This document shows positions 27,859-34,249 of a stretch of 64,000 nt of DNA, piece by piece. A model generated the notes under the pieces. It did no database searches, was not told the DNA's origin, and saw nothing but the letters and a program-made list of their open reading frames with translations. Numbering within the stretch: position 1 is the stretch's first letter; each line of letters begins with the position of its first letter. The position numbers and the translations under genes are program-made. Where the stretch lies: positions 1,426,001 through 1,490,000 of the forward strand of contig NZ_CP123872.1 in assembly GCF_031598375.1 (NCBI RefSeq), given 5' to 3'. This stretch comes from Temperatibacter marinus. Lineage in GTDB: Bacteria; Pseudomonadota; Alphaproteobacteria; Sphingomonadales; Kordiimonadaceae.

Positions 27859-28383
27859 CTAGATCTCATTACGGAGGCTTTCTGTTTGAGCTTGTAAAAC
27901 ATAGGATTTGGCAAGGTTTTTTGCCCCCAAATAGGCGAAATAAGCTGCACCAAAAAGCACACCCAATTCAAGCCAATTATAGGATCCTAAATATCCGACA
28001 GGCCAGATAACCGCAGAAATGAAGTTTTGAAATTGATCTATAAAAAAAGCGATAATACTGTGAATGCCAAAGTTTTTGAAATAGGCGATCATGCCATCAA
28101 GATCAGAGATGAATCCAAAAAACTGTGTCAGTTCGATTTGAGCAAATTTCATAAAAGCGACCGTGCCATAAAAACCACCACCAAATCCTAGCCATTTATC
28201 AATGACAGTATTTCCTGTTTGTCGCTCTTTCTTTGATCGTTTCTCTCCTGTTTCCTCATTTTTCTTTGAAGGACGTTGAATACGACCATTCACTTCTTCA
28301 ACCCCTTTTCTGTAAGCCCAGAAATGAAGCCCAAAACTTGTCAAAGCAACCAATATGGCAGTAGATATAATTTCCCAAACCAT
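27859..28383 (-). CDS. membrane protein of unknown function
   Basis: 174 aa. The N-terminal transmembrane segment (WEIISTAILVALTSFGLHFWAY) is followed by a very charged stretch (residues 33-60, many Lys, Arg, Glu) and at least two further hydrophobic segments (IIAFFIDQFQNFISAVIWPVGYL and LELGVLFGAAYFAYLGA). I do not recognise the family. Upstream on the coding strand lies a purine-rich GAGAAA triplet repeat in the ribosome-binding region. It is 45 bp after another membrane protein gene on the same strand, so the two may be co-transcribed. Confidence 0.6.
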   Translation of the reverse strand: MVWEIISTAILVALTSFGLHFWAYRKGVEEVNGRIQRPSKKNEETGEKRSKKERQTGNTVIDKWLGFGGGFYGTVAFMKFAQIELTQFFGFISDLDGMIAYFKNFGIHSIIAFFIDQFQNFISAVIWPVGYLGSYNWLELGVLFGAAYFAYLGAKNLAKSYVLQAQTESLRNEI

Positions 28384-28428: not shown

Positions 28429-28917
28429 CTAAGAGGATGCCCTCTGCCTCAGGATTTTCACTTGTAAGCCAAAGCCGATTAAATAAATAATAAGGAAAAG
28501 ACCATAGAAGCTTTTTAAGAGAGGATCCTCAATATCTGTAACGATGGGGCTTCCGACTGGTAGACGCATCAAGCCATCTGTAATTGCGGGAATCATGTGG
28601 AATAAGAGTGTCGCTGAATAGGCCATCGCCTGAAAATAGGGTGACAGTTTCCCAAGAAGTTGTGTCTTCTCGACGACAACGCCGCTGATAAGAGCCAGCA
28701 ATGTGAGAATGGCTAGAATATGAGCTGGTCCGAAAAACCCATGAGCAAAAATCATTAATGCTGTCGCAGCTGCATAGAGCGTGCAGGCTAAATAAATTTT
28801 GCCAGACTTAATTTCTAGTGAGATGAATTTATTTTTAGCAAGAGTAGAAATCCCCGCAAATATACCGATGATGGCAATGATTGTATGTGTCCACCCAAGA
28901 ATTGAAATTTCTGGCAT
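28429..28917 (-). CDS. small polytopic membrane protein
   Basis: 162 aa with about five hydrophobic segments: residues 10-25, 43-60, 65-82, 98-112 and 135-153. Histidines occur in or next to membrane segments (GWTHTIIAIIG, IFAHGFFGPAHIL, LLFHMIPAI), a pattern that can bind heme or metal and recalls DUF2306-type proteins, but I cannot assign it firmly. It probably forms a two-gene unit with the downstream membrane protein and is divergent from the DUF305-LVIVD gene about 210 bp away. Confidence 0.6.
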   Translation of the reverse strand: MPEISILGWTHTIIAIIGIFAGISTLAKNKFISLEIKSGKIYLACTLYAAATALMIFAHGFFGPAHILAILTLLALISGVVVEKTQLLGKLSPYFQAMAYSATLLFHMIPAITDGLMRLPVGSPIVTDIEDPLLKSFYGLFLIIYLIGFGLQVKILRQRASS

Positions 28918-29125
28918 CGTTTTCCCATTTCCTTCTGTTATTCCCTGAAGCTAGTTTAAGCAGCCTAGGAAGGCCTGTCTATGATTTAAAGTAGATTTTT
29001 ATCCATTTGGCTATAACGGAAAGATATCTCTCTGTCTTGATTTATAGTTGAGAGATTATTTGACACAAGGATAGAGAGAACTACTATTTGTGTGGGCGAT
29101 TTTATAGGGAAGAGGAAAATATACT

Positions 29126-31516
29126 ATGACTGTAAAAAAATATGTCAGATCATCAACCGTGTTAACCACTGTATTTATGACAGGACTGCTGTGGGGACAA
29201 ATGGGCCATGTAGCGGCTCAGGATGTGCCTCTCGTTCAACCTGGCAATGTAGGCGAAAAAGTAAAAATCATTAAACCAAAGAGCGCCATTGAGATAGCGG
29301 TCAATAGCTACACACCAGAAGATGTGTCCTTCATGCAAAATATGATCCCACATCATCATCAAGCTACCCTCATGTCTGCATTGGTTAAGGGCCGGACCAA
29401 TAGACAAGAGCTTCTTGATATTGCCGGTAAGATTGATGCCTCTCAAAAAGATGAAATCAGTTTTATGCTGGACTGGCTTAAAGCGCGCGGTGAACGTCAA
29501 CCTGATCCGGCAGCTCATTCGAAAATGGATATGTCTCATGTGATGGCTGGAATGGCCTCGCCAGCTCAAATGAAAAAACTCGCGAGCCTAGAAGGTGTTG
29601 CTTTTGATAAGTTGTTTCTTGAGTTAATGATTTTTCATCATGCAGGGGCCATTACGATGGTCAAGGATTTACTCTCCAAGCGCGGCTCAGCGTATGATCC
29701 AGTGCTCTATGAATTTGTCAGCGATGTTCAAACTGATCAACAGTCAGAGATTAGTCGGATGAATGTCTTGCTTGCCTCTCTGTCAAGCGATCCGCGGGTC
29801 GGTCTGAAGGCAGGCTTTTCTGATGCAGGAGAGGCTGCGCTGAATATGAAACTCTTGCGGAATTTACCGCGCCCTGCGGGCTTCTTTGATCCAGAAAATC
29901 CCCTGGGCTTAGCAGCGGAAACAGATAAAGAAAAAGATGGAAAGAAAGTGCGCGCTAAGCGGGGCGGACTGATGAGTTTCGCCAATACGGATATGGCATT
30001 CGATGGCGATAAATTGGTTGTAGGCAATTATCATGGGTTCAATACCTATAAGCTAGACGCGGCGGGCATGCCGGCCTTGATGGCTTCTGTGGTTTGTCCA
30101 GGTGGCCAGGGCGATGTATCTGTGATCGGCGATCTGCTCATTATGTCTGTTGAAGAAACCCGCGGTCGAACAGACTGTGGTATTCAAGGGATTAGTGAGG
30201 ATGTGAGTGCTGATAGATTCCGCGGCATTCGAATTTTTAATATCAGCGACTATCAACGGCCGGTTCAAGTGGGGCAAGTACAGACTTGCCGCGGTTCTCA
30301 TACCCATTCTATCGTTTCTGGAGATGGTAAAGAAGGCACTGTGGTTATCTATAATTCTGGGACTTCTAGCGTAAGGGATGAGAAAGAACTTGAGAGCTGT
30401 ATTGGAAACTTTACTGGGGACAAAAATACAGCGTTATTCCGTATCGATGTGATCGAAATTCCTGTTGATGACCCCTCAAAGGCCCGCATCGTAGATAGCC
30501 CTGCGGTTTTTGCAGATGAACAAACCGGCGCTCTCGCAGGCTTGTGGCGTGGTGGAAATCATGGGCCTAATACACAAAGAACTTATGTCACCAATCAATG
30601 TCACGACATCACAGTTTTCCCGAAGGCAAAACTGGCAGCTGGGGCTTGTTCTGGTAATGGGATCATCCTGGATATTAGTAACCCTTTAAAACCTAAACGT
30701 ATTGATGCAGTTGTGGATCCCGGTTTTGCTTATTGGCATTCAGCCACATTTAATAATGATGGAACGAAAGTTCTTTTCACCGACGAATGGGGCGGGGGAG
30801 GACGTCCGCGCTGTATGGCAGGGGATCCAAAAGGCTGGGGCGCGAATGCTATCTACGATATTGAGAACGGAAAACTTGAATTTAAAGGCAAGTATAAATT
30901 ACCTGCGCCGCAAACGAAAATGGAAAATTGTGTAGCGCATAATGGATCTATTGTACCTGTTCCTGGACGGGATATCTTTGTTCAGGCTTGGTATCAAGGG
31001 GGCATCTCTGTCATCGATTTCTCAGAGTCCACCGATCCAAAAGAAATTGCCTTCTTTGACCGTGGACCTCTTGATGAGAATGATTATGCCGTGGGCGGTT
31101 ACTGGTCCTCATATTGGTATAATGGTAAAGTTTACGGTACAGGCATATATCGAGGCCTCGACGTTTTCGAATTGATCGAGAGTGATGTGCTCACCGCTAA
31201 TGAGTTAGCAGCCGCCAAACTTGCTGATCAAGGTGAGAAGTTTAATCCACAACAACAATTTGAAGTCACCTGGCCGGATGCACCTGTTGTTGCCTTGGCG
31301 TATTTAGATCAGTTGGATCGAACGGGTGCCATTGCTCAAGGTTTATCGAAAGCCCTTCGTGAAGCTTTAACAGAGGCCCAGTCTGGAAAAGTTAATGCAA
31401 AGACGCTTAAACAGCTCGCGAAAAAGGTTAAAAAGAAGTCAGGCAAAGCAGCTGAGCAAAGACGCAAGAAGAAATTGGTTTCAACCATGAGAGCTATCGC
31501 TGCTGCAGCGCGTTAG
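29126..31516 (+). CDS. exported DUF305 - LVIVD-repeat protein
   Basis: 796 aa. A signal peptide ends at VAAQ (residue 32). Residues 60-260 are a DUF305-type four-helix region, with SFMQNMIPHHHQATLM (His76-78), a second element FLELMIFHHAGAITMV and a DQQSEISRMN tail; these His/Met-rich motifs suit metal binding. Residues about 285-700 resemble LVIVD-type beta-propeller repeats (RIFNISDYQRPVQVG, IILDISNPLKPKRI, GISVIDFSESTDPKEIAFF). The last 60 residues are a Lys/Ala-rich helix. Function is unknown. The DUF305 part suggests copper handling; the propeller suggests binding to a partner or the surface. A strong terminator follows, so it is monocistronic. Confidence 0.8.
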   Translation: MTVKKYVRSSTVLTTVFMTGLLWGQMGHVAAQDVPLVQPGNVGEKVKIIKPKSAIEIAVNSYTPEDVSFMQNMIPHHHQATLMSALVKGRTNRQELLDIAGKIDASQKDEISFMLDWLKARGERQPDPAAHSKMDMSHVMAGMASPAQMKKLASLEGVAFDKLFLELMIFHHAGAITMVKDLLSKRGSAYDPVLYEFVSDVQTDQQSEISRMNVLLASLSSDPRVGLKAGFSDAGEAALNMKLLRNLPRPAGFFDPENPLGLAAETDKEKDGKKVRAKRGGLMSFANTDMAFDGDKLVVGNYHGFNTYKLDAAGMPALMASVVCPGGQGDVSVIGDLLIMSVEETRGRTDCGIQGISEDVSADRFRGIRIFNISDYQRPVQVGQVQTCRGSHTHSIVSGDGKEGTVVIYNSGTSSVRDEKELESCIGNFTGDKNTALFRIDVIEIPVDDPSKARIVDSPAVFADEQTGALAGLWRGGNHGPNTQRTYVTNQCHDITVFPKAKLAAGACSGNGIILDISNPLKPKRIDAVVDPGFAYWHSATFNNDGTKVLFTDEWGGGGRPRCMAGDPKGWGANAIYDIENGKLEFKGKYKLPAPQTKMENCVAHNGSIVPVPGRDIFVQAWYQGGISVIDFSESTDPKEIAFFDRGPLDENDYAVGGYWSSYWYNGKVYGTGIYRGLDVFELIESDVLTANELAAAKLADQGEKFNPQQQFEVTWPDAPVVALAYLDQLDRTGAIAQGLSKALREALTEAQSGKVNAKTLKQLAKKVKKKSGKAAEQRRKKKLVSTMRAIAAAAR

Positions 31517-31540: not shown

Positions 31541-31569
31541 AAGGCCCCATATCTTTGGGGCCTTTTTTT
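31541..31569 (+). terminator. intrinsic terminator after the DUF305-LVIVD gene
   Basis: AAGGCCCC - ATATCTTT - GGGGCCTT with a perfect 8-bp stem and a following run of T. It lies 25 bp after the stop codon and also faces the convergent ggt gene. Confidence 0.88.
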
Positions 31570-33706: not shown

Positions 33707-34249
33707 ATGAAAACATCTGTGAACTCATTCAATGGATTTTTACTCAGACCAATAGAGAAGCTTTTTCTCAGTATAAAGGGTGAAGATTTTATAAAAAACT
33801 GGGAAGGATTTGCGGCATTTCCTTATGAGGATATTGCAGGTCATTGTACAATTGGGTATGGAGAAAAACTCCATGATGGGCACTGTACTCTCAATGATAC
33901 CAAAGAATATTTAGATGGCATATCACAATCAAAAGCATCCAAAAGATTAGCAATGAGTGTCGGCCGCAGTGTAACAAGCGTTGGTAAGTGGTTAAAAGGG
34001 GCTTGGATCACTCAATCAATGTTTGATGCCCTCGTAAGCCTGACTTTTAATACAGGGGGAAATCAAGGGAATTGGCAAGTCTATAAACGAACTGCATCAG
34101 GTCAATATCGTGATGCTGCTTTTCAATTCCTAGACATTAACCTTGCATACAATCCAGCAACGAAAAAGAAAGAAGCAAGTGCCGGGCTAACAAAACGAAG
34201 AATAGCCGAGAAAGAAATGTATTTATATGCCTCATATTCAAAGCCATAG
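33707..34249 (+). CDS. phage-type lysozyme (GH24 endolysin family)
   Basis: 180 aa. From about residue 25 there is a GH24 muramidase domain with the catalytic E-8x-D-5x-T signature: Glu33 (NWEGF), Asp42 (YEDI) and Thr48 (HCTIGYG). It cleaves the MurNAc-GlcNAc bond. The 24-residue N-terminal extension has a modestly hydrophobic stretch but no clear signal peptide. No holin, spanin, tail or integrase gene is near, so this is an isolated gene, possibly a domesticated phage gene or a bacterial wall-remodelling enzyme. Its base composition looks more AT-rich than the neighbouring housekeeping genes. Confidence 0.85.
   Translation: MKTSVNSFNGFLLRPIEKLFLSIKGEDFIKNWEGFAAFPYEDIAGHCTIGYGEKLHDGHCTLNDTKEYLDGISQSKASKRLAMSVGRSVTSVGKWLKGAWITQSMFDALVSLTFNTGGNQGNWQVYKRTASGQYRDAAFQFLDINLAYNPATKKKEASAGLTKRRIAEKEMYLYASYSKP

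Follow-up and report, generated by a model that had tools for sequence, protein, structure and literature searches.

CopM, a 196-residue protein with two DUF305 domains and no other named part, binds copper (PMC4335983). In Starkeya novella, Snov_0990, the gene of a DUF305 protein, lies 12 bp from Snov_0991, which encodes a YVTN propeller, and the two likely share one promoter (PMC6527743). The curA cluster of Myxococcus xanthus holds, among copper genes, a DUF305 lipoprotein gene that adjoins the gene of a PQQ_2-repeat lipoprotein (genes E/F; PMC3707914), and the seven-bladed propeller of SELENBP1 needs copper, which His, Asp, and Glu residues are held to bind in its cavity (PMC10362175). Here, we analyzed a stretch of 64,000 nucleotides from Temperatibacter marinus (assembly GCF_031598375.1, contig NZ_CP123872.1, positions 1,426,001 to 1,490,000), referred to below as the window, in which one gene encodes a protein running from a Sec-like signal peptide through a DUF305 domain and a predicted propeller to C-terminal helices. 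Comparison of homologous sequences showed that several phyla keep the two parts together, either fused or as adjacent genes, and that the parts differ in step. The DUF305-propeller partnership is well supported at this level, and since the same two parts are neighboring genes in other bacteria, they very probably work together. Tentatively, and somewhat short of even confidence, we read the pair as an exported metalloprotein of two parts, with a copper-binding DUF305 at the service of a metal site in the propeller.

Named genomes were scanned with a query that contains DUF305 and thus favors fusions, and 33 loci were obtained, 29 fused (their titles naming Alphaproteobacteria and Gammaproteobacteria) and 4 unfused. 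Profile searches with the propeller only were run in three phyla, namely, that of the window (397 genomes), that of a Nocardioides (198), and that of an Acidobacteria metagenome-assembled genome (MAG) (149); strong propeller matches (at least 400 bits) were present in 14, 13, and 20 of them, respectively, center genomes included. The architecture, which the original prediction had regarded as uncommon, is therefore recurrent, if unnamed, among the named-genome loci, but it is indeed patchy across its phylum (14/397). Loci were taken with flanks of about 5 kb, or less if the contig ended sooner, and propeller frames were counted at a score of at least 150 bits. The 93 loci hold 96 propeller frames. 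DUF305 is fused to 43 of these, and of the 53 unfused ones, 42 have a DUF305 domain within 3 kb, which lies upstream on the same strand in 25 cases, upstream and divergent in 11, downstream on the same strand in 5, and downstream on the opposite strand in 1. The remaining 11 unfused propellers, with no DUF305 in the stretch examined, come from G799 (three), G823 (four), G386 (three), and G983 (one), and all four genomes also carry a copy accompanied by DUF305. The propeller-only searches account for a subtotal of 62 frames (13 fused, 38 linked, and 11 unlinked); two further matches of strong or middling score stand outside the count, one fused (L118, in G953) and one linked (L101, in G776, with DUF305 0.5 kb downstream). 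The chance of a DUF305 gene lying within 5 kb of a given gene, estimated from the gene numbers of 20 genomes, is about 0.5% and at the highest 1.3%.

Neighboring genes were called as simple, largely nonoverlapping open frames, from which short or overlapping genes can escape, and were clustered into families. At the 50 unfused loci, the propeller family was counted 50 times, DUF305 33 times, and the next family 3 times. No neighbor family recurred as a third partner, such as a copper pump, a sigma factor, or a cytochrome, at these 50 loci or at 39 mostly fused ones, where the widest other groups reached 5/39 (among them a group of shadow frames from the reverse strand and a group that by eye resembles thioredoxin reductase). 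The control consisted of 20 other DUF305 places from 14 of these genomes, 3 of them weak or partial DUF305 matches. They were examined with flanks of about 4 kb and frames of at least 60 residues, and no propeller or choice-of-anchor B match was found there at an E value of 1e-3. A Pfam scan of 104/118 control neighbor frames gave single PD40, S9_N, and GSDH hits among the 25 families listed of 67 and 58. Since no such propeller stands at the 20 control loci, the association with DUF305 is special to this propeller family.

For 39 unfused pairs, the distances among the DUF305 partners correlate with those among the propellers (r = 0.88), and none of 1,000 permutations reached as high a value, also when shuffling was confined within two sets; the acidobacterial set alone (19 pairs) gave a correlation of 0.89. 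Shared descent alone would account for part of this correlation. The two halves could be a chance mosaic with no functional link, given that DUF305 is widespread and fusions can be accidental, but a mosaic would hardly be expected to show 85 of 96 propellers fused or linked, co-varying distances, and conserved residues in both halves, and we consider it barely conceivable.

The propeller was examined in two AlphaFold2 models. The full-length model, built from 31 sequences, had a mean predicted local distance difference test score (pLDDT) of 79.9 and a predicted template modeling score (pTM) of 0.79; the model of residues 222 to 796, built from 14 sequences, had 76.8 and 0.85. Seven four-stranded blades can be read from the predicted strands, with first strands near residues 287, 328, 395, 492, 537, 604, and 659. 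The choice-of-anchor B model TIGR04312 matches residues 513 to 678 at 41.3 bits (40.8 in the genome search), short of its cut-off of 100, and ten places of the DUF305-partnered propeller family scored 29.5 to 46.8 bits against the same cut-off; all 31 aligned members match it at E values of 0.01 or below. With hhalign, the alignment to choice-of-anchor B reached 97.5% (E value of 7e-12) over 145 columns and 98.1% over 320 columns when a wider alignment was used. Judged from these profile matches, the window propeller shares ancestry with choice-of-anchor B propellers. PF08309 (LVIVD) itself gave no match in the window protein at an E value of 1 and matched 9 of the 31 aligned members at 0.01 or below. 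The LVIVD-type propeller of the original prediction thus holds at the level of the family, by the sub-cut-off TIGR04312 match and the seven-blade strand pattern, but not for PF08309; the many Asp-Ile-Ser-x-Pro turns noted with it were overstated, as a loose pattern gives 4, of which 3 are of the repeat type (residues 372, 516, and 631).

In structure searches, the phosphotriesterase of Sphingobium TCM1 (5hrm) ranked first in both Foldseek runs (E value of 1.8e-11, and 1.3e-12 with the propeller model), and its repeats showed a weak likeness (E value of 0.02) in a search for PDB sequence relatives of the propeller, which found none close. These matches would fit a metal-dependent hydrolase, that is, a phosphotriesterase- or lactonase-like propeller with Zn, Mn, or Ca, to which DUF305 would be a metal or stress accessory. 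We regard this as quite unlikely, however: 5hrm has 11 to 13% identity to the propeller with TM-scores of 0.32 to 0.54, and the 50 entries shown by VIA-align are all of the WD40 type (Z of about 29 to 30; for chain 3ow8, Z of 30.3 and a root mean square deviation of 2.2 over 285 aligned residues), although the absence of 5hrm from these 50 excludes nothing. A separate comparison with SBP56/methanethiol oxidase was prompted by a TDEWG/STEWG likeness; profile comparison did not bear it out, PF05694 giving no match at an E value of 1 and hhalign 7% over 79 columns, and SBP56 was rejected as a relative.

The case for a metal site in the propeller comes from conservation. In an alignment of 97 propeller rows (fused, unfused, and distant members, with gaps and X scored as misses), D289, D330, H392, and D494 are each kept in 96 rows, H394 in 93, H493 in 95, and H538, E554, and H605 in all 97, and all nine are identical together in 92 of 97. 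Columns conserved to at least 95% between residues 283 and 700 comprise 5 of 7 His, 7 of 8 Cys, 7 of 34 Asp, 3 of 19 Glu, and 4 of 12 Gln, along with 4 of 26 Ser, 3 of 22 Thr, 2 of 18 Arg, 1 of 20 Lys, and 0 of 21 Asn. The first strands of propeller blades line the channel mouth, and in the predicted strand list all site residues except E554 and Y623 stand at or just before the first strand of a blade. The strand register would place this nearly invariant His/Asp/Glu set at the channel mouth. Moreover, hhalign puts H538, E554, and H605 on a His, a Glu, and a His of choice-of-anchor B that are invariant there in 12/12 rows. For blades 1 to 4, counterparts were matched by eye (NDIWG/NTDMAF, WRDIKV/QGDVSV, AHNIYI/HTHSIV, and YTHD/QCHDIT, ours first), in a region where the automatic alignment is poor and gives the match no detailed support. 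Eight propeller Cys, kept in 85 to 97 of the 97 rows, may form disulfides. As a side observation, H394 is replaced in 3 of the 11 unlinked copies (L168, L175, and L206) and in no linked or fused row (Fisher p of about 0.001); this test was post hoc and small, entered 84 linked or fused rows (exact number, 85), and was not used as evidence.

On the DUF305 side, PF03713 matches the window protein over profile positions 1 to 150 of 151 with an E value of 2.2e-40 and 138.6 bits (cut-off, 27). The DUF305-like helices with HHHQA and FHHAG that had been read from the sequence are thereby confirmed, the match lying above the gathering score and the two strings being found at residues 76 and 170. DUF305 relatives with solved structures include 3bt5, 2qf9, and CopM (5fej). 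Four His (H76, H77, H171, and H172) are kept in every DUF305 domain compared (94/94, comprising 44 fused, 39 partner, and 11 other domains), and five Met (M73, M143, M168, M178, and M212) are each kept in all 44 fused domains and in no fewer than 38 of the 39 partner domains. A metal-binding role of the window protein, as had been proposed, is plausible. Besides, a weak DUF4142 match was seen in 27 of 31 members (residues 134 to 200 in the window protein) and a Ferritin match in 13 of 31, both at E values of 0.01 or below, hinting that DUF305 may have a ferritin-like origin.

A crude hydropathy rule detects a signal-like hydrophobic stretch ahead of the separate DUF305 domains in 37 of 39 cases, of the separate propellers in 46 of 53, and of the fused proteins in 29 of 43; lipobox-like strings were found in 6 separate DUF305 proteins, no separate propeller, and 4 fused proteins. 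Since such stretches stand before both parts, export seems to apply to both halves, even where they are separate proteins. This agrees with the exported protein of the original prediction, whose signal peptide is seen by eye in the window protein as well.

LVIVD repeats have reportedly been described in cell-surface proteins (PMC2447325), and the pair might accordingly do no more than sequester copper, with DUF305 buffering extracellular copper in the manner of CopM and the propeller forming a scaffold or docking platform without a reaction of its own. CopM, which is found in part outside the cell, protects by binding copper (PMC4335983), and the copper cluster of M. xanthus pairs DUF305 and PQQ_2-repeat lipoprotein genes (PMC3707914). 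Sequestration alone is nevertheless unlikely in our view, as a scaffold would not need a His/Asp/Glu set identical in 92/97 rows, and no copper gene recurs beside the unit. Another alternative is that the pair oxidizes sulfur compounds under sulfur stress, like the RpoE1-linked pair of S. novella. The Snov_0990 promoter, which likely serves both genes, is activated by an RpoE1-type sigma factor, and Snov_0991 is highly expressed on tetrathionate (PMC6527743); SELENBP1 is a copper-dependent thiol oxidase (PMC10362175). Against this, Snov_0991, annotated as a YVTN propeller, is at most a putative member of this propeller family, no gene family recurs near the unfused loci, and the relation to SBP56 is found only at the repeat level, which makes a sulfur-redox role improbable.

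In the two-part metalloprotein that we prefer, both halves would share one metal, most likely copper, and work outside the cytoplasm. DUF305 would capture the ion and either pass it to the propeller site or keep that site loaded, and the propeller site would perform redox chemistry or hydrolysis on a small molecule; fusion would make metal delivery intramolecular. It is doubtful, though conceivable, that this extends further, so that the propellers are exported, probably copper-dependent metalloenzymes with DUF305 as their dedicated loader, and the choice-of-anchor B/LVIVD superfamily would share the site. Should the channel-mouth site prove real, the members of a large superfamily that now carry repeat or surface-protein annotations would turn into candidate metalloenzymes, and DUF305, which has been called a copper chaperone, would gain a client; if the loader reading is true, the fused protein would be an enzyme with its own metallochaperone.

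Several observations weigh against the two-part metalloprotein. The HH motifs are kept equally in DUF305 domains without a propeller (11/11) and are thus no mark of the partnership, and the CopM model NF049983 scored the window protein at 56.6 bits, below its cut-off of 90. With 11 of 53 unfused copies lacking DUF305 in the stretch examined, the propeller can stand alone, and the bias of the named-genome scan toward fusions has to be borne in mind. No copper gene was found among the eight neighbors of the window gene scanned with Pfam, and none recurs beside the module by family clustering, in which loci were not screened singly. The meeting of the site residues in space would rest on the strand register, and the metal, the direction of delivery, and the substrate are what we infer. 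Linkage, moreover, is silent on direction, and DUF305 could remove the metal instead.

The history of the unit was followed in quick, midpoint-rooted trees, in which weak forks are numerous and some branches are long. A branch of the propeller tree with a support of 99 in the Shimodaira-Hasegawa-like approximate likelihood ratio test (SH-aLRT) sets apart all 44 fused rows together with L053, a Halieaceae MAG locus whose two overlapping frames look frameshifted or resplit. The DUF305 tree groups 43 of the 44 fused domains and the L053 partner (SH-aLRT, 88), with L166 elsewhere. The simplest reading of these trees would be one fusion of an older two-gene unit that then spread; L166 may alternatively reflect a second fusion or a replacement of its DUF305. 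Some loci have a makeup of their own. Two genomes of the actinobacterial set (G799 and G823; L168-L177) carry six paralogous propellers each, and the stretch examined shows no DUF305 for 7 of these 12, a pattern that resembles an expansion of the propeller family. A tandem propeller pair stands behind a single DUF305 gene at L151 (G1052), with similar doublets at L169 and L173, and one fused and one two-gene copy occur in the same genome at L187/L188 (G063) and L189/L190 (G613). Three fused loci (L034, L040, and L041) have in common a neighboring protein that presumably resembles DUF1800 proteins.

The features of the window gene are collected in Table 1. The 796-residue frame with a signal peptide that had been predicted is present, and the signal is of the Sec type by eye. 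The gene is a single copy in the 3.18-Mb source genome and also its sole DUF305 match in a profile search. As background to the promoter-like site, the scan found 10 sites in the region versus a mean of 4.9 in shuffled sequences.

Table 1. Features of the DUF305-propeller gene and its flanks, in window positions
Feature	Position	Strand	Remarks
Promoter-like TTGACA-16-TACTAT	29060..29087	+	10/12 matches; suggestive only
Whole gene, DUF305-propeller fusion	29126..31516	+	ATG, 796 residues plus stop; near end-to-end homologues
Signal peptide, residues 1-32, Sec-like, no lipobox	29126..29221	+	By eye: KK, hydrophobic stretch, VAAQ; residues 1-33 with pLDDT <50
DUF305 domain, residues 66-215, helical	29321..29770	+	PF03713
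First HH motif, H76 H77	29351..29356	+	His conserved across compared DUF305 domains
Second HH motif, H171 H172	29636..29641	+	His conserved across compared DUF305 domains
Predicted seven-bladed propeller, residues 237-685	29834..31180	+	Strand 241-247 read as ring closure with blade 7
Candidate metal-site residues D289, D330, H392, H394, H493, D494, H538, E554, H605, plus Y623 and W660	29990..31105	+	Each in 93-97 of 97 rows
C-terminal helical region, residues 720-795, strongly Lys-rich	31283..31510	+	Helices 720-733, 738-752, 758-767, 775-795
Terminator-like hairpin followed by T run	31541..31569	+	By eye; missing from scan listing

The window gene stands alone. The nearest two genes upstream are on the opposite strand (27859-28383 and 28429-28917, minus strand), and by eye they encode small membrane-type proteins, with no Pfam match at an E value of 1e-5; aminotransferase and prephenate dehydrogenase genes lie farther upstream. 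A gamma-glutamyltranspeptidase gene of opposite orientation lies downstream, and a phage-lysozyme-type gene (33707-34249; PF00959, E value of 1.3e-20) has gamma-glutamyltranspeptidase and amidase genes on either side.

A Lys/Ala-rich tail had been predicted at the C terminus, together with attachment to a polymer through it. The tail is present and helical, its helices being confidently predicted (pLDDT block means of 82 to 97, AlphaFold2), but its strong charge is peculiar to the window protein, the last 75 residues of which contain 19 Lys plus Arg and 5 Asp plus Glu. In 29 tail-bearing proteins including the window protein, the final 75 residues carry a median net charge of +3 (range, -7 to +14, with the window protein highest), and 6 of 35 fused proteins, again counting the window protein, lack the tail. 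A cationic polymer-binding tail is thus not supported and was rejected, given the charge of the family, the predicted folding, and its absence in some homologues. FIMAH (PF22888) was matched in 2 of 31 members at E values of 0.01 or below.

The domains of the protein are already known; the DUF305-propeller unit recurs as a family without a name. Of the Pfam and NCBIfam models, none spans both halves of the 31 aligned members as one family, and the unit is unnamed in the literature on DUF305, LVIVD, and choice-of-anchor B that was searched, a search outside of which most subscription papers lie. Its fused and adjacent forms tie two families without a settled job into one testable pair, and the partnership provides a first handle on the function of both of these poorly understood families. 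Compared with the systems described at the outset, the window protein resembles CopM (NF049983; 5fej/5ffa) in having an exported DUF305 with HH motifs and conserved Met and in a clear sequence match, and it differs in falling below the CopM cut-off and in the propeller that follows its DUF305. With choice-of-anchor B it shares matching stretches (YWHSATF/YVHSGWW, TDE/HDE, AHNGS/DHNGY, and YWSSYWY/VWGVYPY), whereas the window family stays below the cut-off of that model, conserves other Cys, is fused or linked to DUF305, and has C-terminal helices of its own. The TCM1 phosphotriesterase (5hrm, 5ioj), the best Foldseek match and a propeller with similar repeats, is alike at the fold level only; it has 11 to 13% identity and no reported DUF305 match. 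SELENBP1/SBP56 (PF05694) serves as a comparison of how such a protein may work only, its profiles being unrelated to the window propeller. Unlike the fused window gene, Snov_0990 and Snov_0991 are separate genes, the propeller being known there by its YVTN annotation, and genes E/F of the M. xanthus curA cluster encode lipoproteins with repeats of another family, set in a cluster of copper genes.

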